The position numbers and the translations under genes were made by a program. A stretch of DNA of 39,561 nucleotides from Methylococcaceae bacterium (GTDB lineage Bacteria > Pseudomonadota > Gammaproteobacteria > Methylococcales > Methylomonadaceae), in NCBI GenBank assembly GCA_028748685.1, contig JAJRDU010000180.1, forward strand, positions 1 through 39,561, in the 5' to 3' direction. Position 1 is the stretch's first letter; every line of letters begins with the position of its first letter. The notes beneath the pieces were generated by a model that saw nothing but the letters and a program-made list of their open reading frames with translations, was not told the DNA's origin and made no database searches. Positions 17,880-38,509 of this stretch are shown in pieces.

Positions 17880-17924
17880 GTTGTTGCTAAAGTATCAAGG
17901 TGATTGGACTTACATAAAATGATT

Positions 17925-18617
17925 ATGTCGAACTTGAATATTCTGGTCGTGGAAGATGAGGAAGCCATCAGGGAAATGCTGGTGATGGCGCTTGAACAGG
18001 CCGGCTTGACCGTCATCGCGGTTGCCAGCGCCGAACTGGCGCAAGAGACGCTGGCGGAAAACCTGATCGACATGATTTTGCTGGATTGGATGCTACCCGG
18101 CATCAGCGGAGTCGAACTGGCCAGGCGCCTGAAAAACGATGCCGGCTACAAGGATCTGCCGATTATCCTGCTGACCGCTCGCGGCGAGGAAGAAGACAAG
18201 ATTCGCGGCCTGGAAATCGGCGCCGACGACTACATCACCAAACCGTTTTCGCCCAAGGAACTAATCGCCCGGATCAAGGCGGTGATGCGCAGGAGCGGTA
18301 AGCTCAGCGAATCCGGCCAACTCAGCGTCGGCGACCTGACGCTGGATGCGGAACAACATCGGCTGACCATCGCCGGACACACACTGGAAGTCAGCCCCAC
18401 AGAATTTAGGCTGATGCAGTTTTTCATGACCAATCCCGACAAGGTTTACAGCAGAACCCATTTGCTCGATCAAGTATGGGGCCGCAGCGTTTATATCGAA
18501 GAACGCACCGTGGATGTCCATATTCGCCGCTTGCGTAAAATTCTGGCCGAATACGATCGCGAAGAACTGATCCAAACCGTGCGTGGTTTCGGCTACCGGT
18601 TTTCGATGGCCATCTGA
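17925..18617 (+). CDS. phoB: Phosphate regulon response regulator PhoB
   Basis: OmpR-type receiver and winged helix (VYSRTHLLDQVWGRSVYIEERTVDVHIRRLRK); paired with phoR. Confidence 0.9.
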   Translation: MSNLNILVVEDEEAIREMLVMALEQAGLTVIAVASAELAQETLAENLIDMILLDWMLPGISGVELARRLKNDAGYKDLPIILLTARGEEEDKIRGLEIGADDYITKPFSPKELIARIKAVMRRSGKLSESGQLSVGDLTLDAEQHRLTIAGHTLEVSPTEFRLMQFFMTNPDKVYSRTHLLDQVWGRSVYIEERTVDVHIRRLRKILAEYDREELIQTVRGFGYRFSMAI

Positions 18618-18622
18618 TTACG

Positions 18623-19897
18623 ATGCAGCGCTGGCAGAGAGAAATCAATAGCGTTATCGCTTTACTCGCGCTGGCTCTTCCCCTGGGTTATTTCACGGGC
18701 CATCTGTCGCTGATCCTGCTGGTCATCGTCACATTTCTGCTAATCCGGCAAACCCTGCACATCAACGCACTCGAGCACTGGCTGGCCCGCGGCGCATTCG
18801 GCGATCAACGCGAACAGAAAGGGATATGGGGAGACATTTACTACCATATCTGGAAAATCAAAAAAACCGAAAAAAAGCGCAAGAAGAAACTCAGCCGCAT
18901 GATAGATCGGTTCCGCACCTCGACCGATGCGCTGCCGGATGCGGCGGTGGTTCTCGGTAGCTATGGCGAAATCGAATGGACCAACAAGGCGGCCCGAGAG
19001 GTGCTGGGCTTGAAGAAAACCGACAAGGGCCAACGCATCCCCAACCTGATCCGCACCCCGCTCTTCATTCAATATTTAAAATCCAACGATTATCGGCAAA
19101 AAATCAGCATACCTTCGCCCGTCAACGAAAACATCATCCTGCAAATCAGCATCGTCCCTTACGGAGCCGGCTTACGGCTGTTGCTTGCTCAGGATATTAC
19201 CCATCTCAAGAACATCGAGCGGATGCGTACCGACTTTGTCGCCAATGTCTCGCATGAATTACGCACGCCGCTGACCGTACTGAAAGGCTATCTGGAAACC
19301 CTGCAGGAAATGGATAACGTTCCCAATATCTATTTCCGCTCCTTCGAGAACATGGCGACTCAGACCGAACGCATGCAATTGCTGATCGATGACCTGCTGC
19401 TGCTGGCGCGCCTGGAAACCAAGGCCAAAATATCGGAACCCGTCGCGGTTCCCGACCTGCTGAAGCAGATTTGCCAGGAAAGCGACTTGCTGGAAAAAGA
19501 CGAACGCCGGGTCGAACTCAGCATCAACACGGACGCTCATCTGCAAGGCGACGAAGAGGAATTGCGCAGCGCCTTCACCAATCTGGTCGTCAATGCGCTG
19601 AAATATTCGCCCGCCGACAAACCCGTTAAAGTCTGCTGGCATTCACTCGAGAACGGTGGGGTGTGCCTGGACGTGGAGGATTTCGGAGAAGGCATTTCAC
19701 CCGCCGACATCCCCCGCATCACCGAGCGTTTTTACCGGGTCGAAGTGAAGCGCAACCGCAAAATCAACGGCACCGGCCTGGGGCTGGCAATCGTCAAGCA
19801 TGTGCTGGTCAGACACGATGCCAAACTGGAAATTACCAGCCAACTGGGCAAGGGCAGCCGTTTCCGCTGTCTGTTTCCGGCCAAACGGCTTTGCTGA
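18623..19897 (+). CDS. phoR: Phosphate regulon sensor histidine kinase PhoR
   Basis: Two N-terminal hydrophobic segments, PAS-like region, H-box FVANVSHELRTPLTVLKGYLE, NINGTGLGLAIVKH. Confidence 0.9.
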   Translation: MQRWQREINSVIALLALALPLGYFTGHLSLILLVIVTFLLIRQTLHINALEHWLARGAFGDQREQKGIWGDIYYHIWKIKKTEKKRKKKLSRMIDRFRTSTDALPDAAVVLGSYGEIEWTNKAAREVLGLKKTDKGQRIPNLIRTPLFIQYLKSNDYRQKISIPSPVNENIILQISIVPYGAGLRLLLAQDITHLKNIERMRTDFVANVSHELRTPLTVLKGYLETLQEMDNVPNIYFRSFENMATQTERMQLLIDDLLLLARLETKAKISEPVAVPDLLKQICQESDLLEKDERRVELSINTDAHLQGDEEELRSAFTNLVVNALKYSPADKPVKVCWHSLENGGVCLDVEDFGEGISPADIPRITERFYRVEVKRNRKINGTGLGLAIVKHVLVRHDAKLEITSQLGKGSRFRCLFPAKRLC

Positions 19898-20119: not shown

Positions 20120-20147
20120 ATGACAAATTTCCATGACTCCCTATAAT
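20120..20147 (+). promoter_or_regulatory. Candidate sigma-70 promoter for cydAB-like operon
   Basis: ATGACA - 16 bp - TATAAT, 34 bp before the ATG at 20182. Confidence 0.5.
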
Positions 20148-20181: not shown

Positions 20182-21582
20182 ATGATTTCCGAAACTGTCG
20201 TCGAGTTATCGCGCTGGCAATTTGCGATAAGCGCCATGTTCCATTTTTTATTCGTCCCACTGACACTTGGTTTATCGGTGTTGCTGGCATTGATGGAATC
20301 GGCCTATGTATTGAGCGGCCAAGCCATTTACAAAGCCGGCTGCCAGTTCTGGGGTCGCCTGTTTGCGATCAATTTCGTGCTGGGCGTAGCGACGCGGCTG
20401 ACCTTGGTATTTCAGTTCGGCATGAACGGCTCTTATTTTTCCCATTATGTCGGCGACATCTTCGCCTTGCCGCTGGCGATCGAGGCACTCAGCACTTTTT
20501 TTCTGGCCTCCTTGCTGTTCGGCCCTTATCTGTTCGGCTGGGAACGCTTCGGCAAGCGGCAACACCTGCTGATCACCTGGCTGATAGCCCTGGCGGTCAA
20601 CGTTTCGGCATTGTGGGTGTTGATCGCCAACGGCTGGATGCAGAATCCGGTCGGCGCCGCGTTTAATTACCAATCCTTCCGCATGGAACTGACCGACTTT
20701 ACCCAACTGCTGAATAATCCGGTCGCCGCCGCCAAGGCCTTGCACACCATCGCCGCCAGTTACGTCACCGCATCGGCAACGGTATTGGCGATCAGCGCCT
20801 GGCTGCTAATCAAAAACCCTAAGGACGCAATGGCCCACAGCAGTTACAAACTGGCGGCCCCCTTCGGATTGGCAGCCATGCTGCTGGTCGGCGGCCTGGG
20901 CGATGCCACGCCGCATCACGACAGTCCTGTACAGAACCGCAAACTTGCCACCCTGGCCGGTGACGATCTCGGCGCACTATTACCGGAGATCGAAGCGCGT
21001 ATCCGCAACGGCATTAAAGCCTACGCCTTATTGCAGGACCTGCGCGATAACAACACGGACCCGGCATTATTGGCCGACTTCGACCGGCGCAAGGCCGATC
21101 TCGGCTACGCCTTACTGCTGAATCGCTGGACCGAACATCCGGCCGATGCCAGCGACAAACAGATCGCATTGGCCGCTCAATTCGCTCTCCCCGGCTCGCC
21201 GGCGCTGCTTTACTGGACCTACCGCCTCATGATTGCTTGCGGCATCGTCACTCTGCTGCTGTTGCTGCTGGCGGTCTGGCGCATCCTGGATAAAAAATTG
21301 CCGCAACCCTGGCTGTTAAGACTCTGTCTCTACGGAGTGCCGCTGCCCTGGCTAGCCTGCATTGGCGGCTGGTTTATAGCCGAAGCCGGCAAACAACCTT
21401 GGGCGATCGCCGATACACTGCCGACCTTTTTAAGCGTTTCCTCGCTGTCGGCAAAAGAATTGATCTTTAGCCTGGTGGCTTATGCCATTACCTACGCCAC
21501 AGTGGCATTCATAGGTCTGTTTCTAATCCGGCGGACTATCCGGCCCCATATATCCAGCCCAGCGCAAGGAGCCGTGCAATGA
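20182..21582 (+). CDS. Divergent cytochrome bd-type quinol oxidase subunit I (CydA-like)
   Basis: SAMFHFLFVPLTLGL, SHYVGDIFALPLAIEAL, ANGWMQNPVGAAFN, LHTIAASYVTA, GWFIAEAGKQPWAI; shortened Q-loop. Confidence 0.88.
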   Translation: MISETVVELSRWQFAISAMFHFLFVPLTLGLSVLLALMESAYVLSGQAIYKAGCQFWGRLFAINFVLGVATRLTLVFQFGMNGSYFSHYVGDIFALPLAIEALSTFFLASLLFGPYLFGWERFGKRQHLLITWLIALAVNVSALWVLIANGWMQNPVGAAFNYQSFRMELTDFTQLLNNPVAAAKALHTIAASYVTASATVLAISAWLLIKNPKDAMAHSSYKLAAPFGLAAMLLVGGLGDATPHHDSPVQNRKLATLAGDDLGALLPEIEARIRNGIKAYALLQDLRDNNTDPALLADFDRRKADLGYALLLNRWTEHPADASDKQIALAAQFALPGSPALLYWTYRLMIACGIVTLLLLLLAVWRILDKKLPQPWLLRLCLYGVPLPWLACIGGWFIAEAGKQPWAIADTLPTFLSVSSLSAKELIFSLVAYAITYATVAFIGLFLIRRTIRPHISSPAQGAVQ

Positions 21583-22751
21583 ACTTCGATTACGAAACCT
21601 TACGCTTGGTTTATTGGGCATTGCTGGTGCTGGCAGTGACCGGCTTTGTGGTTTGCGACGGCCTGGTGATAGGTACAAACATGCTGCTGCCGTTGCTTGC
21701 CAAAACCGACGCCGACCGGCAAGCCATGATCGGCAGCATCGCTCCCACCTCACTGGGGCTACAAGCCTGGCTGGTCGTAGCGATTGCACTCTCGTTCGCC
21801 GCCTGGCCTATCGCTTATGCGGTGTTGTTTTCCTGCCTGCAATTCTTGTTGTTATTGATGCTGTTGGCCTGGATGGCTAGGCCATTAGGTCTGTACTTTA
21901 GAAACGCTAGCGAGAATCCGCTCTGGCGGCAAAACTGGGACAAAGTCTTGGCTGTCAGCGGCTTTTTGCTAGCATCATTGCTAGGCATACTCTGCGGCAA
22001 TCTACTAAAAGGCGTGCCTTTTCATCTCGATAGCGACATGCGGATTTTTTTCCTGGGTGATTTTTGGGGCCTGTTCAATCCCTTTACCCTGCTGATTGCA
22101 GCGGTTAGCCTGTCATTATTGCTGCTGTACGGCGCGGCCTATCAGCAACTGAAATGCCATGGCGAAATATATAGTCACGACAAAACCCTGGTGTATAAGG
22201 CTGGTGCGGCATTTCTGATCCTGTTCGCGCTGGCCGGTTTATGGATCACCCGCCTGGAAGGCTATCATGTCACCTCGGAAATTTTTCCCAATGGCGTGAC
22301 CAATCCGCTGAACAAATTCGCCAAGCGTAGCGAAGGTTTGTGGCTGGATAATTACGAACATCAGCCCGGCTTGTGGGCCGTGCCGATTTTGGCTTTCGTC
22401 GGCGCCGGCGCGACGCTGTACCTAACGAAACTGAATCGCGATTACTGGGCTTTTATTGCCGCCATTACCACGGTGATCATGGCCGTCTTGACTGCGGCAG
22501 TTTCGCTATTCCCGTTTCTGCTGCCCTCCAATCGCTCGCTGAACAGCTCGCTGACCATCTGGGACGCCAGCGCCAGCCATAACACCCTGTCTACGCTGCT
22601 ATGGATAGTAGCGTTCGCCTTTCCCTTGCTGATGATTGCCAGCCGCTGGGCATTCCGGTTCTGGGTGGATAGTGGCCGCTCGACCGTAACCGGAAACAGT
22701 ATCGATTCGCCAGACGCCAATAACCACTCCCCGAAAGACGATTATGCTTGA
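21579..22751 (+). CDS. Divergent cytochrome bd-type oxidase subunit II (CydB-like)
   Basis: GNLLKGVPFHLD, LFNPFTLL, NPLNKFAKRS, MPS-like LPSNRSLNSSLTIWDASASHNTL; 4-bp overlap with subunit I. Confidence 0.85.
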   Translation: MNFDYETLRLVYWALLVLAVTGFVVCDGLVIGTNMLLPLLAKTDADRQAMIGSIAPTSLGLQAWLVVAIALSFAAWPIAYAVLFSCLQFLLLLMLLAWMARPLGLYFRNASENPLWRQNWDKVLAVSGFLLASLLGILCGNLLKGVPFHLDSDMRIFFLGDFWGLFNPFTLLIAAVSLSLLLLYGAAYQQLKCHGEIYSHDKTLVYKAGAAFLILFALAGLWITRLEGYHVTSEIFPNGVTNPLNKFAKRSEGLWLDNYEHQPGLWAVPILAFVGAGATLYLTKLNRDYWAFIAAITTVIMAVLTAAVSLFPFLLPSNRSLNSSLTIWDASASHNTLSTLLWIVAFAFPLLMIASRWAFRFWVDSGRSTVTGNSIDSPDANNHSPKDDYA

Positions 22752-22797
22752 CCTGGAGACTTTGAAATTCAACAATTAGGAAACTCTGAACAAGTTG

Positions 22798-22873
22798 ATT
22801 CCGTTCATGGTTCGACAAGCTCACCACGAACGGAATCAGCCACTTACCGTTCGTCCCGAGCCTGTCGAAGGAC
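22798..22873. repeat. Inverted-repeat extragenic element
   Basis: ATTCCGTTCATGG...CCACGAACGGAAT (12/13 paired) followed by related CCGTTCGTCCCGAGCCTGTCGAAGGAC. Confidence 0.75.
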
Positions 22874-22923
22874 TTAACCAGAGTTTCCTTAAGCGGCCTT
22901 GGCATGGAACCATAGGAATAACC

Positions 22924-23328
22924 ATGAGCAAATTTATATGGCAAAATCATTATCGTATCGGTAACCAGATTGTAGACCAGCAACATCAGCAGATGTTTGA
23001 TTTGGCCAATCAACTGGTACAATCGAAAACTCAGGCCGATCTGGCCGAAAACGCGATGCGCCTGTACCAACATGTTAGGGAACACTTCCAGTACGAGGAA
23101 GCCTTTATGAAAGAACATGGCTATCCCGATTATCAAAAGCATGTTAAGGCCCATGATCTCATGCTGGACAAACTGGTCGATGTCAGCGACAAAATCAACA
23201 AGCATGACTGGCAACAGCAAGACGTGCTGAAATTCGTGCATGAGTGGATCAGCCATATTCTCGAAGAAGATGCCGCATTCAACGTTTATTTTCAAGCCCA
23301 CTCGGCTAGGCAAACCGTGGATATTTAA
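22924..23328 (+). CDS. Bacteriohemerythrin
   Basis: QIVDQQHQQMFDLAN, HVREHFQYEEAFM, HVKAHDLML, HILEED diiron ligand motifs; ATG 22924 preferred because ORF-track start lies in the repeat. Confidence 0.92.
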   Translation: MSKFIWQNHYRIGNQIVDQQHQQMFDLANQLVQSKTQADLAENAMRLYQHVREHFQYEEAFMKEHGYPDYQKHVKAHDLMLDKLVDVSDKINKHDWQQQDVLKFVHEWISHILEEDAAFNVYFQAHSARQTVDI

Positions 23329-23370
23329 GCCAGCGAAGTCTTATCATCTCAACAGCGTGGAGTTTCGATC

Positions 23371-23763
23371 ATGGATATGTTTACCTGGCAGGATCATTTC
23401 AAAATAGGCAATGTGGCGGTCGATACCCAACACCAACACCTTTTCGATCTGGCCAACCAGATTGTCGAAGCCACCGGTACCGATGAGCTGACCCGCCTGG
23501 TCATGCTGTTCTGCCAGCATATCCGCGAGCATTTCCAGGCCGAGGAAAGCCTGATGAAACTGCATCGCTACCCTTGCTATCCGGTTCACGTGGAGAACCA
23601 CAACCTAATGCTGAACAGGCTGATCGAAATCAGCAAAACCATACAGGAAAATCGCTGGAACCCCGCCGACATCGATACCTTTGTCAGCGACTGGGTACTA
23701 AGGCATATTCAGGAAGTGGATATGTTGCTTGGCGAATTTCTGACACAGCACGACCAAACATAA
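23371..23763 (+). CDS. Bacteriohemerythrin (second copy)
   Basis: VDTQHQHLFDLAN, HIREHFQAEESLM, HVENHNLML, HIQEVD diiron ligand motifs. Confidence 0.92.
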   Translation: MDMFTWQDHFKIGNVAVDTQHQHLFDLANQIVEATGTDELTRLVMLFCQHIREHFQAEESLMKLHRYPCYPVHVENHNLMLNRLIEISKTIQENRWNPADIDTFVSDWVLRHIQEVDMLLGEFLTQHDQT

Positions 23764-26568: not shown

Positions 26569-28128
26569 CTAATGTCCGGTTGACGGCGCAACGCCATCAA
26601 CGCTGAAACCTTGCAGCCCGACGTGGATATTGCGATCCTGCGCCGCCAACAAAAAGTCGGCAATGGTTTCCAGGATGTCCTGATCGATGAATAATGCCTT
26701 GTTACCGTCGATTAGTAATTCACTGTCGTCGGATATGGCAGTTAGATGCTTGCGCAACAAGGCTTTATTGAGGAAGGAAACGTCTTTGTGCAGGCGCAGC
26801 AGATAATGCGAGCCGTGTTGCGTCAAGGTGATGGCTTCGTGGAAATTGGCGCGCAATACGAAAAAAATACCGATTGCAATGCCTATTACGATACCTTCCA
26901 GCAAATCCGTGAACAGAATCGCCACAACGGTGATCGTAAACGGTAAAAACTGATTCCAGCCTTTGCGATAAATCTCTGCAAACAACTTAGGTTTCGCCAG
27001 TTTGTAGCCGGTTTGCAGCAGAATCGCCGCCAAACAGGCCAGCGGTATCATGTTGAGATAATTGGCAAAAAACAACACGCTGATCATCAACAAAATACCG
27101 TGAAAGAAGGCGGACATCCGCGTATGACCGCCAGCATTGATGTTGGCTGAACTGCGGACGATGACGGCGGTAATCGGCAAGCCGCCTATCAGGCCACTAA
27201 TAATATTGCCTAAGCCCTGAGCCTTGAGTTCGCGGTTGGTGGGTGCGATGCGTTTATGCGGGTCCAGCTTATCGACGGCCTCAATGCTTAGCAGCGTTTC
27301 CAGGCTGGCGATGATCGCCAGCGTCACGGCAACGCTATAGACCTTGGGGTTATTGAAATAACTGAAATCCGGCCAACACAGCTGCGCGAGGAAACTGGAA
27401 GCAGAACCCAATTCCGGTAGCGAAACCAGATGCTGCGGTTCGATTGCCCACTCAGGGGCATGCGTTAATGCCCAACTGTTGTAGGCCACGCCCCAGACCA
27501 CTGCCAACAGCGGACCCGGTATCATTTCCAGCAAACGAAAGCGCTTAATAAAGCCGGTTTCCCAAACGATCAAAATCAGCAAAGCCGCGCCGCTGACCAG
27601 GGTCGCGCCGGGTGAAACACCTTCCAATGCGTCACGCAAACCGAAAAAACTCGACTTGGCGCTCTCATGCATATAACTTTCGTCGCCCGCAAAACTGGCA
27701 TCATAGCCGGTGGCATGAGGCGTTTGCTTGATGATCAAAATCAAGCCTATCGCAGCCAACATGCCTTTGATCACCGTGGCCGGGAAAAACGCGCCTATCA
27801 GGCCAGCCTTCAGGAAGCCAAGCACCATCTGCAAAACGCCGGCGACCACCAGACTCAGTAAAAACACGCTAAAGCTGCCGAGGTCTTTGATGGCTTCGAA
27901 TACGATTACCGTTAATCCGGCGGCAGGTCCGGAGACGCTAAGATGCGAGCCGCTGCCCCAGGCCACTACGAGCCCGCCTATAATGCCGGCAATGACACCG
28001 GAAAACAGCGGCGCGCCGGAAGCCAATGCGATACCCAGACACATGGGCAAGGCAACCAGAAAAACCACAACACTGGCCGGCAAGTCTCGGCGCAGATTGG
28101 TTAAATAAAAAAGTACTTGAGATTTCAT
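26569..28128 (-). CDS. SulP-family inorganic anion (possibly bicarbonate) transporter
   Basis: 519 aa polytopic; VVFLVALPMCLGIALASGAPLFSGVIAGIIGG, GPAAGLTVIV, LPITAVIVRSSANINAGGHTRMSAFFHG; next to carbonic anhydrase. Confidence 0.9.
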   Translation of the reverse strand: MKSQVLFYLTNLRRDLPASVVVFLVALPMCLGIALASGAPLFSGVIAGIIGGLVVAWGSGSHLSVSGPAAGLTVIVFEAIKDLGSFSVFLLSLVVAGVLQMVLGFLKAGLIGAFFPATVIKGMLAAIGLILIIKQTPHATGYDASFAGDESYMHESAKSSFFGLRDALEGVSPGATLVSGAALLILIVWETGFIKRFRLLEMIPGPLLAVVWGVAYNSWALTHAPEWAIEPQHLVSLPELGSASSFLAQLCWPDFSYFNNPKVYSVAVTLAIIASLETLLSIEAVDKLDPHKRIAPTNRELKAQGLGNIISGLIGGLPITAVIVRSSANINAGGHTRMSAFFHGILLMISVLFFANYLNMIPLACLAAILLQTGYKLAKPKLFAEIYRKGWNQFLPFTITVVAILFTDLLEGIVIGIAIGIFFVLRANFHEAITLTQHGSHYLLRLHKDVSFLNKALLRKHLTAISDDSELLIDGNKALFIDQDILETIADFLLAAQDRNIHVGLQGFSVDGVAPSTGH

Positions 28129-28159: not shown

Positions 28160-28792
28160 TCAATCGGTGTATTGATAAATCGGATGAATCCGGGTGTTGT
28201 GATCGAGTTTAATCAGTTCTCTGATTAGCCCGTCCTGGGTATCGTAAATCCAGCCGTGCAGCGTTGGCTTATGCCCATGTTTCCAGACCGATTGTATGAT
28301 CGAGGTATGAGCCAGGCGGTAAACCTGTTCGACGACGTTCAACTCTACCAAACGATCAACTTTTTCCGCCGGGTCTATGGCCTCCAATTCTTCCTGATGC
28401 AACCGATAAACGTCCTTGATGTGTAGCAACCATTTGTTGGCTAACACCAACTTCGAGCTCTGCGGCTGTAATGCCGCCTTGACCCCACCGCAACCATAAT
28501 GGCCGCAAACGATGACATGTTTGACCTTCAACACCGCAATTGCGTATTGCAATACACTCAGGCAATTAAAGTTGGACATGATCACTTGATTGGCGAGATT
28601 GCGATGCTCGAAAATTTCGCCAGGTTGGGCATTGACTACGGTTTCCGCGGGCACCCCACTATCGGCACAGCCTACCCACAAAAATTCGGGTTTTGTTACC
28701 AATGCCTTTCGGCTGAAATATTCCGGATCTTTCCTGTTCATTTCTTCCGACCATGCCCGGTTTTCCAGGATTAATTTCTCAGGTGTTTGCAT
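28160..28792 (-). CDS. Beta-class carbonic anhydrase (altered CADSR motif)
   Basis: GCADSGVPAE, FEHRNLAN, CGHYGCGG; ATG at 28792 behind AAGGAGG. Confidence 0.93.
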   Translation of the reverse strand: MQTPEKLILENRAWSEEMNRKDPEYFSRKALVTKPEFLWVGCADSGVPAETVVNAQPGEIFEHRNLANQVIMSNFNCLSVLQYAIAVLKVKHVIVCGHYGCGGVKAALQPQSSKLVLANKWLLHIKDVYRLHQEELEAIDPAEKVDRLVELNVVEQVYRLAHTSIIQSVWKHGHKPTLHGWIYDTQDGLIRELIKLDHNTRIHPIYQYTD

Positions 28793-28958
28793 CTTATTCC
28801 TCCTTAATTGAATAATTTGATACGTTGTAACTAAAATTTGCTTGGGTTTGTTCAAACCCTACCGTGGAAATAAAGCCAATCTTAAATCGCATGAGGCATC
28901 GAATCGAAACCACATGCCAATTCATTATTCTGCTTGTCCTTTGTTCCAGCTCTCGCTG

Positions 28959-30533
28959 TCACTTAACCTCTCCGCTATCGCTTGGTTTTTCGATCACCTT
29001 GGATGGAGAATCGGTGAATGGCATTGCAGCCTGATCCAAGCGTTGCAGCCAAGCCCGCAACGTCGGTTCCTGACGAGACATAGTCCATTGCGGGTATAAG
29101 CCCAGCACCAACACCAACACGGCCGGTAGCATCAGTAAAAGCAATTCGCGAGACCTTAGATCCTGTGCCCGAATGACGGCGTCGCGTACAAGCGGACCGA
29201 AAAAAGCGCGTTTTATAAAACCCAACATATAGGCCGCGGCCAATACTGCGGTAAACAGCGCGACCATCGCTAGCGCCGAATTCGCCTTAAAGGCGCCTAG
29301 TAAGAGTAATAATTCCGCTGGAAAACCGTTCGTTCCGGGTACGCCCATGCTAGATAGTGCGAACAAAAAAAATAACGCTGTCAGACGTGGCATAGGTCTG
29401 GCTAGCCCTCCCAGATGAATCCAATCAGTACTGTCGAGGCGCTGTTGTATCATGCCGGCCATTAACATCAGGCTAGAGGCGACTATGGTAAAATTAAAGA
29501 GTTGCATGATCGCGCCCTGGATACCCTGCTGGTTAAGACCGGCTATCCCCATCATGACCAGACCGACGTGACTGATACTGGAATAGGCTAATAGGGATCT
29601 TAGATTGCTCTGTCGAAGTGCGATCAACGCCCCGTATATCAGGGTCACTGCTCCGACAATAGTTAATAGCCAATGATGTTCTACAGCCGCTGCCGGCGTT
29701 AGCGGTATCGCGAAGCGTACGATGCCGTATACGCCCAGCTTCAAAGCTAGCAGCAAAGCGCCAATTTGCGTCGGAGCCTCCATGGCCACAGAGGGCAACC
29801 ATGTGTGAAACGGTACCAAGGGCGCCTTGACCGCAAACCCCAACACCAGCAGCAGAAAAATCACCGGCTGTAAGTCATGGGCGACAGGCGTAGCCAATAA
29901 TAACGGTAGGCTGAAAGCCAGATCCTGGTGTATCGAGCCGCCGACATACTCCGCATGATTTATCGCCAACAAGATGATCCCAAACAGCAACGGTACGCCA
30001 CCGAACAACATGAACAACGTGTATTTCATCCCCGCATGTCGCCTTTCGGCACCTATCCCCCACAGACCGATTAGGAAGAACAGCGGAGGCAAGGTCAGCT
30101 CCCAAAACAGGAAAAATAGCACCATGTCCAGAGCGGTAAACACGCCGATAGTGACACTTTCCAACACCAGTATCAGCGCCAGATAAAAACGACTTAAGCG
30201 TTGCACCGTATTCCATCCGGCGAGTACAGTCATCAAAGTGACTAATGCTGTCATCGGCAGAAACAGAATCGATATGCCGTCGACACCGAGCTGATAATGG
30301 ATGTTCAGATTAGGTATCCAAGGGTGATCTTCCAGCAATTGAAACCCTTCACGATCGGATTCAAAACCTGCAAGCACAAAAATGCTTAGCAATAGCTCCG
30401 ATCCGGCGACCAACAATGCAACGCACTTGGCCAGATACCGATCACGGACAAAGATCAACGCTAGTGCGCCGAATATCGGCCAAACCAGGCACATCGATAA
30501 AAGCGGAAAACTGTCATTCATGAGGCGGGACAT
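28959..30533 (-). CDS. NuoM/MrpD-like proton-conducting membrane subunit
   Basis: FFLFWELTLPPLFFLIGLWG, FAVKAPLVPFHTWLP, LLAYSSISHVGLVMMG; start may be ATG at 30521. Confidence 0.88.
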   Translation of the reverse strand: MSRLMNDSFPLLSMCLVWPIFGALALIFVRDRYLAKCVALLVAGSELLLSIFVLAGFESDREGFQLLEDHPWIPNLNIHYQLGVDGISILFLPMTALVTLMTVLAGWNTVQRLSRFYLALILVLESVTIGVFTALDMVLFFLFWELTLPPLFFLIGLWGIGAERRHAGMKYTLFMLFGGVPLLFGIILLAINHAEYVGGSIHQDLAFSLPLLLATPVAHDLQPVIFLLLVLGFAVKAPLVPFHTWLPSVAMEAPTQIGALLLALKLGVYGIVRFAIPLTPAAAVEHHWLLTIVGAVTLIYGALIALRQSNLRSLLAYSSISHVGLVMMGIAGLNQQGIQGAIMQLFNFTIVASSLMLMAGMIQQRLDSTDWIHLGGLARPMPRLTALFFLFALSSMGVPGTNGFPAELLLLLGAFKANSALAMVALFTAVLAAAYMLGFIKRAFFGPLVRDAVIRAQDLRSRELLLLMLPAVLVLVLGLYPQWTMSRQEPTLRAWLQRLDQAAMPFTDSPSKVIEKPSDSGEVK

Positions 30534-32058
30534 CCATATGATGATTGTGATGGTTTTGGGGGTAATGCTCGCCAGTCTCGCTAACTTCCTGATCTATGAA
30601 TTTCAGCCATGGCGTGGTGTAAAAACCGGTGCCTATCAGTAGACCACAGATCGTCACCGCTATGATGCGCTCATTGGTCATTGAATGATGGCTACGGTTA
30701 TAGGACAGTACCTTGCGTCTGGGATGAGCGATAAACAAGCGTTGAAACGCCCAAAGCAGAAAAGCTGCAGCCAGCACGTTACCCATTAGAATAGCTATCG
30801 CAGTCAGCCAGCCTTGTCTCTCGACAGCACCCTCAATCAACAGATGCGCAGCGTCGAAACCAGGAGTGCCAGGCATCACCATAGTGCTCAATGCCGAAAT
30901 CAGAAACAGCAAGGCAATGGCGGTGTTGGTCTCAAACAGCCCCCCCAAACGCGGAAAGAACGAGGTACGGGTACGTTCGTAAATAAGACCTATGCTGAAC
31001 AGCATGCCAGCCATCGCCAAACCGTAGGCCATCGATAACAAGATGCTGCCTTCCAGCGCAAAGTCGTTGGACGAAAATCCTCCGATTACCAACATACCGG
31101 TGTGGCTAATCACCGCAAACGCCAGCATCCGCCGCATATTGATCTGCATCAGAGCCATCAAGGCACCGTAAAAAATACCGATCAGTCCCAGAGCTACCGC
31201 GAAATCCATCCATTGCTCAACGGCGCCAGGCAACAGTGGCAAAATAAACCGAATCAGCGCATAAATCCCCAACTTCAGGCCAAGCAGGAATATTGCCGCG
31301 CTCGCGGCAGTACCATGTTCGCACAGCACCGGCAACCAGGCATGAAACGGAAACAATGGCATGCGCACCGCGAACCCGAAAAATAGCAGAATAAAAATCA
31401 GCGCTTCGTTCGGGATAGCCAGATTGTGGTGTTTCAGCGCCAGCCAGTCAAAACTCAGCGCCATGCCATTTTGCGCCAGTCCGAAACTCAGAAGAAAAAA
31501 ACCGGCTAGCATCATAGACAACCCAAAAAGCCAGTATTGCAACAACGTTTTCACTGCCTGTGTCCGCAGATTGCTATTACCGGAGGAAACCGTCAGCAAA
31601 ACCACCGGCACCAGTTCCAGTAGACACCAGAACCAGAACTGCAAGGAATTCAGTGCCGCGAAAGCCCCGATCAAGATGCCTTGATAAACCAGGAGACAGG
31701 CGATGAATACACGATCATTTCGGTGATGGGTAATCAGGGTATAGACCAATGCCAACAACCCCAAAATCGCGGTCAATGGAATAAACAGGACGTTGGTACC
31801 ATCCACGCCGACCCGGTAACTCAGCCCGAGAAAATCGGCACTTTCGGCCAGATGAATGCCGGGCGCTTCCGAGTTGAACACCCACAGCAAATAAAGGCTG
31901 AGCGAGACATTCAGCAAAGCGCCGATAAACGCCAGTCGCAGGCTACTGGTCCACTTGCAGATCAACACCGCCGCGGCGGTCAACAAGGGCAGCAACGTCA
32001 GGACAGTTAAAATTGGCAACTCGGCCGCAGCCTGCCAATAAACAATATTGGTCATCAT
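30514..32058 (-). CDS. Divergent NuoM-like membrane subunit with His-rich C-terminus
   Basis: VDGTNVLFIPLTAILG, FFGFAVRMPLFPFHAWLP, MRRMLAFAVISHTGMLVIGG; C-terminus NHHNHHMDVPPHE. Confidence 0.82.
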   Translation of the reverse strand: MMTNIVYWQAAAELPILTVLTLLPLLTAAAVLICKWTSSLRLAFIGALLNVSLSLYLLWVFNSEAPGIHLAESADFLGLSYRVGVDGTNVLFIPLTAILGLLALVYTLITHHRNDRVFIACLLVYQGILIGAFAALNSLQFWFWCLLELVPVVLLTVSSGNSNLRTQAVKTLLQYWLFGLSMMLAGFFLLSFGLAQNGMALSFDWLALKHHNLAIPNEALIFILLFFGFAVRMPLFPFHAWLPVLCEHGTAASAAIFLLGLKLGIYALIRFILPLLPGAVEQWMDFAVALGLIGIFYGALMALMQINMRRMLAFAVISHTGMLVIGGFSSNDFALEGSILLSMAYGLAMAGMLFSIGLIYERTRTSFFPRLGGLFETNTAIALLFLISALSTMVMPGTPGFDAAHLLIEGAVERQGWLTAIAILMGNVLAAAFLLWAFQRLFIAHPRRKVLSYNRSHHSMTNERIIAVTICGLLIGTGFYTTPWLKFIDQEVSETGEHYPQNHHNHHMDVPPHE

Positions 32059-33626
32059 GGGTATCCCCGCGCCACCACAAGTGTGATCAAAACGAACAGC
32101 GCCAAATAGCTGGGGTTTAATAACAGGCGCTCAAAACGGATGGCTGCGCGGCCAAGGTGGCGACCTAAGCGGATCGAATCGCGACCCACGCCACGAAGAA
32201 TAAAGCGAAATTCAAACCAGTGCAGTAAGGCGGCCACCCACTCAGCCAACTTCCCCGCCAGACCGCTGCCTAGCGCGAAGCGGTCTTCTTCGCTGATCAA
32301 GTTAGCGCCCATTTTTTGCTCTTCCCATTGTGCCAACGAGGCAATTGCCTTGATGGCCGGCGCCGGTGCGCCTAAGGCCGAATCGACGATGTGCTCATCG
32401 AAATAGCGCATGTCCTTGGCCAATTGCTGAATCGGTTTGACCAGCGCCCAATCCAAGGCCGGTTCCAGCCAACCACGTTGCAATGAAGCCATGAACACCC
32501 AACGAAAATTGGCAAACGTAGGTGAGATGGATTTGGTTGGCCGCCCCTGAGTGTTGTAAAGAATCGACGGCGCGATCAACAGTAAATAGCTACGAACAAC
32601 GGCATGTGCACACAGATGCCAGGCCGCCAAGTTCCAGAAATCCAACCCGCATTCGACGAACATCAGGCCCAGTTGTGCCGACGTGGCAAAAATCTGCGAG
32701 CTTTTGATATCGGTCTGAGTCAAACCTACCCAATAACTGCAGAACGCGGTCAGTGCGCCAACCAAGGCCAGCACTAGCATCGCCAACGGTGCCTGCTCAA
32801 ATAGCGGGCGCGATTGAATGATCAAAAACACGCCGGCATGCGTCATGACTCCGCCATAAAACACCGCGCTGGAGGGCGTTGGCCCCTCCACCGCCCTCGC
32901 CAACCAAGGCGTAAAAGGAAACTGCGCCGACTTGGCGAACGCCGCTAACGCAAAACCTAGTGCCAGCAAAGTCGCGTCCATTTGAGTCAAGTCGGCGGCC
33001 CCGGTGTTGATAACCTGCCAGTCAGCACTTCCCAACCAGAATAAAGCCATGCTAATTGCAAGAATAAAGCCGCCATCACCAACCCGATTTGTGACAAAGG
33101 CACGAGTGGCATTTTGAGCAGCCACGGGCCTGTCATAAACATAGGCAATCAGCCAGTAAGAACACACGCCAGCAACTTCCCATCCCATGAAGGTGAACAC
33201 CGCATTTGCGGACAACACCAGCAGCAACATCGCAGCTGCAAATAGATTCAAGATGAAAAAGAAGCGATGAAAGCCTGCCTCACGATGCATGTAGTTCACC
33301 GAGAAGCGCATCACGATCAACAATAGCAGCGTAAACAAACTAGCCAGTGTCAAATTGAAACCGCTCGTCATTAACTTAAAATCGACGGCTAAACCGCCAC
33401 AGCTTAGCCAGTTACCGTAACTGTATGCTTCGTCCATCCCTGCAAACCAATTGGCTCCCAGCAATCCAAGACCTACTGCGGCCGAAAAACCTATGGCCGT
33501 CAACGCGATCCGCGCGGTGTATTTTTCGCCAGCTTCACCATCAAGGATTTTAAAAAAATTCAGGCCACCGATCAGCATCGCGGCAAGCAAGGGTAACAAC
33601 GGAATTAGAATCGTCCAGATCGCCAT
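32055..33626 (-). CDS. dabB: NuoL/DabB-like proton-conducting membrane subunit
   Basis: FMGWEVAGVCSYWLIAY, FVTNRVGDGGF, FAKSAQFPFTPWLARAVEGPTPSSAVFYGGVMTHAGVFL; ATG 33626 is 3 bp from dabA stop. Confidence 0.85.
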   Translation of the reverse strand: MAIWTILIPLLPLLAAMLIGGLNFFKILDGEAGEKYTARIALTAIGFSAAVGLGLLGANWFAGMDEAYSYGNWLSCGGLAVDFKLMTSGFNLTLASLFTLLLLIVMRFSVNYMHREAGFHRFFFILNLFAAAMLLLVLSANAVFTFMGWEVAGVCSYWLIAYVYDRPVAAQNATRAFVTNRVGDGGFILAISMALFWLGSADWQVINTGAADLTQMDATLLALGFALAAFAKSAQFPFTPWLARAVEGPTPSSAVFYGGVMTHAGVFLIIQSRPLFEQAPLAMLVLALVGALTAFCSYWVGLTQTDIKSSQIFATSAQLGLMFVECGLDFWNLAAWHLCAHAVVRSYLLLIAPSILYNTQGRPTKSISPTFANFRWVFMASLQRGWLEPALDWALVKPIQQLAKDMRYFDEHIVDSALGAPAPAIKAIASLAQWEEQKMGANLISEEDRFALGSGLAGKLAEWVAALLHWFEFRFILRGVGRDSIRLGRHLGRAAIRFERLLLNPSYLALFVLITLVVARGYP

Positions 33627-33628
33627 AG

Positions 33629-36600
33629 TCACCAAGCCTCCGCCCAAACAGGCTGCTTAATCAACATCGGCACGACCGGTTGTGTTTCATCGCGATAACA
33701 ATCCGGCGAATCGTTCCGCAACGGCAGTTGAACATCAAGCGGCCGCCAAGAAACGAAGCCCAGCCCACGCCGAAATATACTTATCTCGCCGCTATCGGGA
33801 TCTTTGGCGCTCAGATGTACCCAACCGCCGCCGATCAGTTCCCGCAGACTTTCTTGGCGAGCATAAATTTGCTCCAAAACAGCCGTCTTGGCTTCTACAA
33901 CGATCTGCAAACGCATCGCTTCGTGAATCTCGATCATCTGCCGTGGCAGACCGGTACGCAAGTCGCTGCTCGCCCCTTCCATCACACCGAAAAACCCGGT
34001 CAGGTTGTGCGGCACTTTCGTGCCGCAGCCCAGTCGTTCGTTGTTGACCGTGGAAAAATAATATTCCAGATTGATTCCGGCACCGACCGGACCAACGGCC
34101 AGCAAAATGCCTTCCAGCACCTTACCATCCGGGTCTTGGGTCGGATCGTATGAGATCAGGAACATACGGCGATCGAAGAATGCGCCCTGGGTCTGCGAAC
34201 GCCGCCCGATTAAGGCTGAAGCGTTGGTGGCGTGACCAAGCTCCGGACGCGCCTGTGAAAAATCGGTGGCACGCTGAAGAAAATGCCGCCATGCCAGATG
34301 CGGTGTCGGCTGCCGAGGAGCCGATGCTAAGCGCCTACAGCGTTCGTGGGCCGACATGCGCTGAGCATGTTGCATGTCCCGCTGAAAACGTTGTAATTTG
34401 ACCTGCCGGGAAGCCGGCACCGCATCGATGTCATACCAAGTGATATTTTCGTCGCAAGTGTTGTGTTCCGCGCCGACGAACCAAGTATCGTCGGGAACGA
34501 CGATGCCGCGCTCCGCCAGGAGTTGACGAACCTGCTGTCGGTTCGCCATCGCGGCGAACAAGCGGGCATTCGGCCCGCCGTGACGACCACTACAAGCTCC
34601 GCAGTCATAAGCGGCCAGATGAGGATTGTTCTGGCTCATCGAGCCGTGCCCCATCAGCACCACCAGTTCGGCAAAGCCGTAGGTAAGACCCGTGTTGCGC
34701 AAAAACGCGGCGACGCGCTCGGCCTGTTCCAGATCGGAAAAACCCAGTCGCGGTTGTTGCGGAGTCGGCAATGAGGCGCTGCCATCTGCCGTGAAATGCA
34801 AGCGCGTATCCAACACCGGGACAAGGAGACTCGCCGCCTTGACCAACATCCTTTGCAGCGCTTTTGGGAAAAAGCTTTTCGCCAGCAAACCTGCCAAGGT
34901 CAGTGGAGCGATGGCGCAAATCAATGGATAAGCCAACAGTGCATCACGCCGCAAACCGTGATTCAGCAGATCGGCGATACGCTGCGTGAATTTAACGCCT
35001 CGCCGATGGCGATGAAGTTGGGGCTCCTGTCCGGCAAGACCGTGTTCCCTGACATTTTGGGCCGGAGTCACCCCCACCGGACACAGGGCTGCAGGCTTAA
35101 TATCGTCCAGACCTTGATAATTCATCGGCACGCCGAAGAATCCGGCGGCCCCCAGGGTTTCGACCCGCGGATTGAATTCCTCAAGATGCCGACGTATACC
35201 CTCCTCTCTATCGTCCATGCAGAACACAATTTGCGCTTGCGGCCGCTGATCGCGCCGTGCCCATCGCCCCCGGTTATGATTGGCATGCAAGGCTTGCAGC
35301 AAATCTTGTTGGTAATGGCGTTCATATGCAATCAACCAGACATTACCGCGCTGTTGCTCGGTAAAACTATCGATAACATCCAGCCATTCGAGCAACTGGG
35401 ATTGAGTTAAAGCCTGTACCTCGAAGGCATCGAGTTTCAATTCCTGGCAGGCTCGGAATAGCCGCCAACCTTGATTGTATACACTAAGCCCGTTAACCCT
35501 AACCATCGGACTATGCCGCCAGGTCCAGATGCGTTCGGCCAGGATTCGCCAGGCCCTAGGTTGGCGCCTGGAATCGGCCAGCAAAACATGTCCAGCCTGC
35601 GTCAGATGTTCCGGCAATTCGCCCTGAAACAATGCCTGTCTGACGACAAACTCCGCCTGATTTCTCTGAAAATACGCCTGCAACTTGTCATAACGAGCAT
35701 CGCAACGCCATCGTTTACGGCAAAGCGGTTGCGCATAAAGCCTATCCAGTATCAGACGAATCGCCAGATAATCGGCCAACAGCGGTTGGGTGGCATCATC
35801 GGCGTGATAAGCCGGATGAGTTTGTCGCCAGTTGATCATGCCCGACCAACCGGGTAGTTCCAGCGCTAAGCGCTGCAGGTAGCTCGACCAACGTTCGATC
35901 GGAATGCCTAGCGCCTCAAGTTGTTGAATAATTGCCTCGACCGCATCCGCCGGGAGCGCATCGGTGACGGTTTTCCAATCGCCTAGTTCCTGAAAAAATG
36001 GCTGAGCATCAAAAACGAGACTATGCCGCCAAGCCCGATACAAACCCAGCTCCTGGCGCCGCGGAATGCGCCAGGCTGCTATACCTTCATCGAGCAACGA
36101 GGCGCATAAGCGCAGCAACTGTGGACGTACTTTGTCCAGAATGTCTGTGCCGGTCAAGGCCTGCAACAGGGTACGCAGGGTTGCCCTGTTGCCAACCTGG
36201 TTGAAAAACTGATCGATTGTCATGGTCGTTTGTTGCTGCATTTGTTGGTGCACCGTAGCGGCGCCACTGTCATCAATCCAGCTTTCCGCTTGCTCTTCGG
36301 ACAAATCGAGCAAATCTTCCGGATGAAGGTCAGGCATCTGCAATTCCAGTTTATTCAACACCGCGCACCACAAATCGCGTAGCGTTTCGCCGTTGGATTG
36401 GACGGTATCCAATAGTCCGAGCTCTTCCACTTGCCAGCGCAATTGGGCAGGCGTAACAGCCTGTAGATCGGACACGAGCGCCAAACGACAAAGTTGCCGG
36501 TGAGTCAAAACCTTGTCACCCACACAACAACCCGTCGCCGACTCGGTTCCAAATTCCTGTATCAGCGACGCGTCAATATCATCGTCGCTGATCCGTCCTT

Positions 36601-36826
36601 GTCGATAAAATTCGCGAAACTGCTGGCCGGACGCATAACAGTCTATGCCGGTCAGCGCCGAAAACTCGGACAATGCCTGTTCGAAACACAGATACTGAAA
36701 GCCATGCAGCGTATTGTGATGCACGAAGGCGTGTATCGGCGCCTGTCCCGGCAGCACATGTTCCAAATGATGGATAGCCTCCTGGATAAGTTGGCGCTGC
36801 GACTCGTTGAATGAACGTGTAGTCAT
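33629..36826 (-). CDS. dabA: DabA-family (DUF2309) inorganic carbon transporter / vectorial carbonic-anhydrase-like subunit
   Basis: 1065 aa; PIHAFVHHNTLHGFQ, IVFCMDDREEGIRRHLEE, LMGHGSMSQNNPHLAAYDCGACSGRHGGPNAR, GLPRQMIEIHEAMRLQIVVEA. Confidence 0.93.
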   Translation of the reverse strand: MTTRSFNESQRQLIQEAIHHLEHVLPGQAPIHAFVHHNTLHGFQYLCFEQALSEFSALTGIDCYASGQQFREFYRQGRISDDDIDASLIQEFGTESATGCCVGDKVLTHRQLCRLALVSDLQAVTPAQLRWQVEELGLLDTVQSNGETLRDLWCAVLNKLELQMPDLHPEDLLDLSEEQAESWIDDSGAATVHQQMQQQTTMTIDQFFNQVGNRATLRTLLQALTGTDILDKVRPQLLRLCASLLDEGIAAWRIPRRQELGLYRAWRHSLVFDAQPFFQELGDWKTVTDALPADAVEAIIQQLEALGIPIERWSSYLQRLALELPGWSGMINWRQTHPAYHADDATQPLLADYLAIRLILDRLYAQPLCRKRWRCDARYDKLQAYFQRNQAEFVVRQALFQGELPEHLTQAGHVLLADSRRQPRAWRILAERIWTWRHSPMVRVNGLSVYNQGWRLFRACQELKLDAFEVQALTQSQLLEWLDVIDSFTEQQRGNVWLIAYERHYQQDLLQALHANHNRGRWARRDQRPQAQIVFCMDDREEGIRRHLEEFNPRVETLGAAGFFGVPMNYQGLDDIKPAALCPVGVTPAQNVREHGLAGQEPQLHRHRRGVKFTQRIADLLNHGLRRDALLAYPLICAIAPLTLAGLLAKSFFPKALQRMLVKAASLLVPVLDTRLHFTADGSASLPTPQQPRLGFSDLEQAERVAAFLRNTGLTYGFAELVVLMGHGSMSQNNPHLAAYDCGACSGRHGGPNARLFAAMANRQQVRQLLAERGIVVPDDTWFVGAEHNTCDENITWYDIDAVPASRQVKLQRFQRDMQHAQRMSAHERCRRLASAPRQPTPHLAWRHFLQRATDFSQARPELGHATNASALIGRRSQTQGAFFDRRMFLISYDPTQDPDGKVLEGILLAVGPVGAGINLEYYFSTVNNERLGCGTKVPHNLTGFFGVMEGASSDLRTGLPRQMIEIHEAMRLQIVVEAKTAVLEQIYARQESLRELIGGGWVHLSAKDPDSGEISIFRRGLGFVSWRPLDVQLPLRNDSPDCYRDETQPVVPMLIKQPVWAEAW

Positions 36827-37027
36827 GATTGATCCGGTAGATTCGTATAGATTAATTTCTTAAAATGGCCCAAAGTCTTCAAAGAAATTCCGGCGCCACG
36901 GCGACATTTAATTTAATCGGGTCAGCGCCCACGAAGGCGGTCCGAAAGCCGTTTGATTCGATCGACCAGTGTCTCGCCAGCCGAGTGCGTTGTATAAACA
37001 TCGCATCGCTAAAGTTACCGACTACAT

Positions 37028-38509
37028 TTAGAACCATGCTGGCAACCTCTCCCCAATAAGCACAAACATTCTGCCGACCGTTGCCGTTGACAACTCGATC
37101 AACGGCCCAGGCAAAAAGCCGAACATCACAATGCCGCCAACCAATACCCCCGACGCTAACAGCTCTACCGGCCTAAGATCGGCAATATGCTGCATTTGCG
37201 GTTTGACGGGGCCAGTGAACAACAGGCCTATGGTGCGCATCGCGTAAGCAGCACTAATCAGGATACTGAGACTGAAGAACACCATTAAGCCACCCCATTG
37301 CTGAAAGCCGCCAATCAGGGTGTGAAGTTCGGCGACAAATCCGACCGACCCGGGCAGTCCCATCGCTGCTAACAAGGTCAGCGCGGTCAAAATGGCGAAG
37401 CGCGGCATCACCTGAGCCAGCGAACTATAGTCCTGAATATTTCGGGTATGGGTACGCTCGTACAGCAGGCCGACCAACAGAAACATCGCTCCGGCAATCA
37501 GGCCATGAGCCGTCATTTGCAATATTGCCCCAATAAAACCGGTTGGGTTGAGCGATGCAATCCCTAGAAGCACCACCCCCATGTGGCTCAACGAGGAATA
37601 AGCCACCATGGCCTTCAAGTCACTCTGTCGCCAGGCTAATAGACCGCCGTACAACATCCCAAATAAGGCCAGAAACACCAATAATGGCTGAATCACTTGC
37701 GCGGCGACCGGCAACATGACCACCGCTCTCAGCAAACCATAGGCCCCCATTTTCAGCAGGATACCGGACAGCAAAATGCTGACCGGGCTAGGCGCCTCGA
37801 CATGAGCCAACGGCAACCAACCATGTAGAGGAAATATCGGCATTTTCACTCCAAAGCCGACAACGAAACCCAGTAGCACCAATACTTGCTCAATCACTGG
37901 CATATTTTGTGCCGCCTGCCCCATCGAAACCATCAGCGAACCTTGATGTTCAAGGTCATACTGACTAATCGCCAGCAGACTGAGCAGCATGAACACCGAG
38001 CCACCCATGGTGTAAAGCACAAAATTCAGGCTGGCGGCATGACGACGCTTACCCCCCCAACGGTCAATAAGAAAGTACAGCGGTATCAGCGTCACTTCCC
38101 AGAAGATGTAGAACAGCGCCCAGTCCTGAGCCAGAAACACACCGAGCATGCCGAATTCGAGTAGTAAGATGGCGATGTGATAGCCCTTAATACCTTCGCT
38201 CACCGAAAAGGAGGCCAGCAGGGCGATACATGTTAGCAAGGTGGCCAGCAATAGCATCGGAATAGCCAAACCATCGACACCCAGCGCATAAGCGCTGCCT
38301 AGTTTAGGATTGAGAGGATAAATTTCGCTAAACTGCACTGCCGTGTTACTGGCATCGAATGAAACCGTCAGCCAACAGGCCATTAACAAGGCGCCGGTGG
38401 TAAACAGATTGCTCAGCGTTCTGATCACGCGAGTATTGTTCGCGGAAACGGGTATCAGCGATAACGCGCCTAGGGCGGGCAGCCAGAGCAATATGCTTAA
38501 AATTGTCAT
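37028..38509 (-). CDS. NuoM/MrpD-like proton-conducting membrane subunit (canonical motifs)
   Basis: FYIFWEVTLIPLYFLI, GFGVKMPIFPLHGWLPLAHVEAPSPVSILLSGILLKMGAYG, DLKAMVAYSSLSHMG. Confidence 0.92.
   Translation of the reverse strand: MTILSILLWLPALGALSLIPVSANNTRVIRTLSNLFTTGALLMACWLTVSFDASNTAVQFSEIYPLNPKLGSAYALGVDGLAIPMLLLATLLTCIALLASFSVSEGIKGYHIAILLLEFGMLGVFLAQDWALFYIFWEVTLIPLYFLIDRWGGKRRHAASLNFVLYTMGGSVFMLLSLLAISQYDLEHQGSLMVSMGQAAQNMPVIEQVLVLLGFVVGFGVKMPIFPLHGWLPLAHVEAPSPVSILLSGILLKMGAYGLLRAVVMLPVAAQVIQPLLVFLALFGMLYGGLLAWRQSDLKAMVAYSSLSHMGVVLLGIASLNPTGFIGAILQMTAHGLIAGAMFLLVGLLYERTHTRNIQDYSSLAQVMPRFAILTALTLLAAMGLPGSVGFVAELHTLIGGFQQWGGLMVFFSLSILISAAYAMRTIGLLFTGPVKPQMQHIADLRPVELLASGVLVGGIVMFGFLPGPLIELSTATVGRMFVLIGERLPAWF

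Follow-up and report, generated by a model that had tools for sequence, protein, structure and literature searches.

Two adjacent genes in the window, the 39,561-nucleotide stretch of DNA analysed here, encode homologues of the two subunits of cytochrome bd, and the comparisons described below suggest that their product, CydA'B', very probably does not act as an ordinary quinol oxidase. The account that we favour, and regard as probable in its full form, is that cydA'B' encodes a pseudo-oxidase, kept because the periplasmic face of its CydB' subunit serves some function. A literature search found no earlier description of a cydA'B' paralogue or of a pseudo-oxidase branch of the bd superfamily.

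The cydA' gene (20182–21582, forward strand) encodes a CydA homologue of 466 residues that matches PF01654 at 388 bits. The cydB' gene (21579–22751, forward strand), which overlaps the cydA' stop codon in an ATGA, encodes a CydB homologue of 390 residues that matches PF02322. AlphaFold (AF2) models, which the first-pass annotation of this DNA had proposed as a check, show that the CydA and CydB folds are kept: mean pLDDT is 90.9 for CydA', with E. coli CydA (6rx4_A) as the best fold match at a TM score of 0.93, and 86.9 for CydB', which matches 6rko_B at 0.91. Both subunits thus fit the family models and the fold of the cytochrome bd superfamily (PF01654 plus PF02322). A −10-like promoter element, TATAAT, is located at 20142–20147 on the forward strand, approximately 35 bases upstream of the cydA' start codon, and a TATAATTGC-like element is present at an equal distance (∼35 bases) from the cydA' start in nearly all of the 35 relatives.

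The contig that makes up the window belongs, in its full length, to an incomplete genome (completeness 77%, contamination 4.1%). A second, canonical cydAB had been suggested as something to look for in this genome and was indeed found, its E. coli-type cydA carrying all of the canonical residues (L001), together with a third, CIO-type cydAB (L002), the cydA of which is cut by a contig end. No match to methane monooxygenase was found in the window's incomplete genome. A methane/ammonia monooxygenase family protein is present in complete genomes of the genus and in related genera, which are therefore methanotrophs; the genus itself is probably Methylomonas.

The first-pass annotation had reported four sequence changes relative to E. 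coli CydA and a deletion of some 46 residues in the Q-loop, and each was recovered at its reported place: KLAAIE reads KLATLA (E257A), FFLES reads FFLAS (E107A), TGLTMEFQFGTNW reads TRLTLVFQFGMNG and GRQPW reads GKQPW (R448K). In a multiple alignment, seven residues near 20956–20970 (forward strand) occupy the place of 53 in E. coli, and a phmmer match to E. coli CydA stops at query residue 259 (E. coli 257) and continues from residue 263 of the query (E. coli 307). The 46 missing residues correspond to approximately E. coli 259–305, that is, to the Q-loop lid including the catalytic R298. A 2026 cryo-EM study of E. coli bd-I defines the lid as residues 259–306 and assigns quinol catalysis to Y243 and R298; the Y243A and R298A exchanges each abolish activity, and E107 is the proposed terminal proton donor (PMC13189123). 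In the window CydA', R298 is gone with the lid, Y243 is replaced by His, and E74V, E107A, E257A and R448K are all present (E. coli numbering), the position of E107 being taken by Ala109 (20506–20508, forward strand). Residues E99, W441 and R391 are retained.

When 35 variants were aligned with 114 canonical CydA sequences, these changes proved not to be peculiar to the window. The Q-loop lid is absent from all 35 aligned variants, and the remnant at its site is seven residues long in 33 of them, the window's included, and five and 17 residues long in the other two. Several of the variants with this remnant come from single-contig genomes, and the shared remnant is therefore neither chance nor assembly error. 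E74, E240 and R298 are retained in none of the 35 variants, E107 and E257 in one each, N148 in 11, R448 in 13, Y243 in 16 and E99 in 18; each of these nine positions is kept in 97–100% of the canonical sequences. Over the clade of 37 (the 35 variants and two extra sequences), E107 is lost in 36. The loss of quinol-site and proton-path residues described for the window thus extends across the aligned variants. Loss of K53 was dropped as evidence because Q or R occupies that position in canonical relatives of the family as well.

Proton-path acids have been lost from the partner subunit too, D58 being replaced by L and D105 by Y in the window CydB'. Among 34 variant CydB' sequences D29, D58 and D105 are never retained, and W57 and K109 once each. 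In canonical CydB, W57, D29 and K109 are present in 108 of 108 sequences and D105 in 99 of 108, and position 58 is D or E. No cydX was found next to cydB', such a neighbour being a feature of only a subset of qOR1 long Q-loop oxidases; cydX adjoins cydB in E. coli and follows it in the canonical operon of the genus. E. coli bd-I dimerises through CydX (PMC13189123).

The heme ligands, which had been described as remaining, are indeed all present in the window CydA': H19 (heme d; His21, 20242–20244), H186 (heme b558; His188, 20743–20745), M393 and E445 (heme b595; Glu401, 21382–21384), with the coordinates on the forward strand. The description does not extend to the clade, where only 18 of the 37 members have all four, nine have H19Y alone and ten have other losses; H19 is lost in 12, H186 in four and E445 in six. 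In one relative (G210, locus L190) H19, H186, M393 and E107 have all been lost. Tyrosine is able to ligate heme, and H19Y in nine relatives was counted against the pseudo-oxidase account. The window's own copy may retain hemes b558 and b595.

Both CydA' and CydB' are under purifying selection. Their reading frames are open in the relatives fetched, and the median pairwise dN/dS, taken over pairs with dS between 0.05 and 1.2, is 0.15 for CydA', 0.09 for CydB' and 0.06 for canonical CydA; the two variant values and the lack of frame breaks led us to reject a pseudogene. The variants evolve several times faster than the canonical copy, with a dN between the window genome and G063 of 0.31 for CydA' and 0.36 for CydB', compared with 0.04 for canonical CydA.

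Conservation in CydB' is concentrated on the periplasmic side. With topology taken from the AF2 models and from homology to E. coli CydA and CydB (N-terminus outside, Q-loop side periplasmic), the 51 positions that are invariant in all 37 variants comprise 38 of 90 periplasmic positions but only 13 of 273 elsewhere, which gives an odds ratio of 14.6 and a p-value of 4e-16 that serves as a guide only, alignment columns not being independent. In the periplasmic loops of CydB' 43% of positions are at least 97% conserved, compared with 14% in canonical CydB, whereas in the helices the figures are 6% and 21%. In CydA' the helices reach this level at 6% of positions (45% in canonical CydA) and the Q_N stub at 0% (57%). 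Among the invariant periplasmic residues of CydB' are K144, which sits at the edge of the membrane, and H149, E227, H230, F247, R250, D257, H261, N318 and S320. The patch lies in four segments of the forward strand: 22008–22025, with K144, G145, P147, F148 and H149 invariant; 22257–22268, with E227, G228, Y229 and H230 invariant; 22302–22361, with N242-P-L, K246, F247, K249, R250 and W255-L-D257-N-Y-E-H261; and 22524–22544, with P316-S-N318, S320, L321 and N322 invariant. At locus L190 the periplasmic patch is intact in a CydB' whose first helices can hardly be recognised. As judged from conservation and inferred topology, the patch may be a binding site: a metal site could be built from the three invariant histidines, D257 and E227, and the basic residues could fit an anion or a docking surface.

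Matches to PF01654 occur in 37 of 37 genomes of the genus, nearly all of which have one canonical and one variant copy. In G168 the variant cydA' was found and no canonical copy, and G142 has the variant together with a 55-residue remnant of the canonical gene. Among 301 genomes of the order, full-length variant CydA' is present only in the window's genus and in two sister-genus genomes, and in a CydB' profile search of 369 genomes of the class the best score outside the window's genome was 373 bits, against 580. In G163 cydA' (L146) and cydB' (L189) lie approximately 218 kb apart and both are retained.

A CydA phylogeny with motif mapping, also proposed in the first-pass annotation, places the variants in one clade of long Q-loop ancestry, with the losses mapped across the 35. 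CydA' sits next to the long Q-loop CydA of related genera, and among relatives of solved structure it scores best against E. coli bd-I, at 481 bits, the M. tuberculosis protein reaching 237. These tree positions and profile scores bear out the earlier remark on E. coli-type similarity and rule out a short Q-loop or CIO origin. In quick trees with long branches, a branch with SH-aLRT support of 90–92 separates the variants from all other sequences when the patch-bearing loci are included; in the first tree its support was 99. In the trees of both subunits the variants lie closest to complete oxidases that bear the patch, the second tandem copy of G185 (L203:4488-7159) being nearest, and the present canonical cydAB of the genus belongs to another lineage. 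The G185 locus is a tandem cydABX-psiE-cydAB (L203:595-7159), of which the second copy keeps all catalytic residues, has a CydA tail that is partly missing, and resembles an evolutionary intermediate.

The patch is older than the decay of the oxidase, as complete oxidases of related genera carry it. It is found whole in catalytically complete cydAB of two genera (L196, L201, both L203 copies and L205) and in part in the CydB of other genera. Among the 301 order genomes, the W-x-D-N-[YF]-[EQ]-H core is present in all 35 of the genus, in G163 and G202, and in some others; among 399 sampled genomes of the phylum this strict and narrow pattern was found in no other genome. A first comparison, against the genus's own canonical copy and against distant gammaproteobacteria, had made the patch appear specific to, or gained by, the variant, and was overturned by the patch-bearing complete oxidases. 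H149, which is common in canonical CydB, was likewise ruled out as a gained residue.

Among known systems, E. coli bd-I CydAB(X) (qOR1, long Q-loop; PDB 6RKO and 6RX4) resembles CydA'B' in both folds (TM 0.93 and 0.91), in gene order, in the Q_C half of the Q-loop and, for the window's copy, in the heme ligands. It differs in features that are missing from CydA'B', namely the Q-loop lid, R298, Y243 and E257, E74 and E107, CydB W57, D58 and D105, and CydX, and in heme ligands that many relatives of the window's copy have lost. The canonical cydABX of related methanotroph genera (both L203 copies, L205, L196 and L201) share the CydB periplasmic patch with the variants and are nearest to them in both trees, the second L203 copy also missing part of the CydA tail; unlike the variants they have all catalytic residues and a full Q-loop, and in the first copies CydX is present, fused to GGDEF. 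Short Q-loop bd and CIO oxidases likewise have a shorter CydA, but CydA' groups with long Q-loop proteins and retains their Q_C. Archaeal CydAA' and the families OR-C and OR-N, reportedly described by Murali et al. in 2021 (as cited in PMC8951039 and PMC13189123), appear similar in being superfamily members whose active site is altered or which have no quinol site; they appear to differ in being deep families or active oxidases.

The CydX-GGDEF fusion, of approximately 190 residues, occurs in about 14 canonical bd operons of the same bacterial family: L203:3304-3885, L205:7363-7941 and 12 others (L194-L202, L204, L207 and L210). PF08173 and PF00990 matched the L203 and L205 proteins and the remaining loci were recognised by sequence; the L203 protein appears to have a degenerate signature, with an RFDEA region where GGDEF is expected. 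The fusion directly links a subunit of a terminal oxidase to a domain of the cyclic-di-GMP type. In L205:2123-6168 (G141) approximately 4 kb with several unrelated ORFs separates cydA from cydB. A psiE-family gene (psiE standing for phosphate-starvation-inducible E) adjoins canonical cydAB at L203:3905-4348 (PF06146) and L001:3285-3707 (by similarity), and the variant adjoins phoBR.

Upstream of cydA', genes for a phoB-like response regulator and a phoR histidine kinase (PF11808) occupy 17904–19897 on the forward strand and are upstream in approximately 29 of 35 relatives. They stay there while other neighbours vary, an observation of adjacency only. It was not accepted as proof of phosphate regulation, and in one subclade (L127-L136, L139 and L148; for example L128:3737-5998, minus strand) a divergently read gene for a putative MASE1-type sensor lies between phoR and cydA'. 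Two tandem hemerythrin-domain ORFs lie directly 3' of cydB' (22795–23763) and are not kept there in most relatives; a phosphoketolase gene is also downstream of cydB' in the window. At 28160–38509, on the minus strand, several Na+/H+ antiporter or NADH dehydrogenase-like membrane subunits surround a 1065-residue protein, in what we take to resemble a DAB-type inorganic carbon uptake cluster, and a carbonic anhydrase-like ORF (28160–28855) and a SulP-type transporter (26569–28128) lie beside it. No other redox gene conserved beside cydA'B' was found in the neighbourhoods of the relatives.

In the mechanism proposed here, the likely order of events starts from a working oxidase that already carried the patch. 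Probably cydA'B' arose when this family's patch-bearing cydAB was duplicated, after which the CydX partner and the CydA tail would have been lost, followed by the Q-loop lid, CydA E74 and E107 and CydB W57, D58 and D105 of the quinol site and proton path, and last, lineage by lineage, by the heme ligands. Oxidase activity would thereby be absent from CydA'B'. The CydB' periplasmic face, with its ten invariant residues from K144 to S320 named above, would carry out a heme-independent task, most likely the binding of a metal ion, a small ligand or a partner in the periplasm; CydA' would serve as a membrane scaffold. It is because of this proposed role of the CydB' face that cydA'B' would still be selected. 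We put forward more tentatively the specific reading that CydA'B' is a non-respiratory membrane complex on a bd scaffold, that some members of the clade contain no heme, and that its function resides in a CydB' periplasmic site for a ligand or metal (H149, H230, H261, D257 and E227), which first arose in working oxidases. The patch is also present in catalytically complete oxidases, so a role in assembly or stability is conceivable and could be what it serves.

The first-pass annotation had suggested a changed electron donor, acceptor or function. A change of function is supported; a changed donor or acceptor fares less well, as the serial loss of heme ligands under continued selection and the conservation of the CydB' periplasmic face, not of the heme core, argue for loss of oxidase function rather than a new redox couple, and such loss appears the likelier of the two. 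The window's copy keeps its four heme ligands together with E99, W441 and R391, and some redox role is therefore possible for it and for the other members that keep all heme ligands. A complex that was still a redox enzyme would take electrons from a non-quinol donor, such as a periplasmic cytochrome c, and would not use the customary proton path in reducing O2, NO or peroxide. Families without a quinol site do exist in the bd superfamily (OR-C and OR-N; PMC13189123), and the full ligand set persists in 18 of 37 members as well as in the window, but half of the clade is without it while both subunits remain under selection, the Q_N stub has no conserved positions (0% versus 57%), the proton path is missing from both subunits and no further redox gene is conserved alongside. 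We therefore consider this reading unlikely.

The coexistence of canonical cydAB in most genomes, and a patch common to complete oxidases, would also fit a regulatory or assembly partner that associates with the canonical bd oxidase, or with another complex, and modulates it. Retention of the variant in G168 and G142, neither of which yielded an intact canonical cydA, and the lack of CydX, the route of dimerisation in E. coli bd-I (PMC13189123), make such a partner less probable still. That cydA'B' is a slowly dying duplicate, under relaxed selection and on its way to becoming a pseudogene with its function gone, would account for the fast evolution, the lost catalytic residues and the one pair split by ∼218 kb, but it is hard to reconcile with frames open in nearly all genomes, dN/dS values well below 1, a conserved −10 element, 51 invariant CydB' residues and persistence in G168, and is very improbable. 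The pseudo-oxidase account, with selection acting on the periplasmic face of CydB', is accordingly the one that we prefer.

The presence of cydAB in a genome is routinely taken to indicate microaerobic respiration, and one of the two or three pairs in this genus is probably non-respiring. The variants, their complete relatives and the intermediate-looking tandem copy form a natural mutational series that separates the roles of CydB from those of CydA, and the conserved patch offers specific residues with which to probe a role of CydB beyond that of a scaffold.
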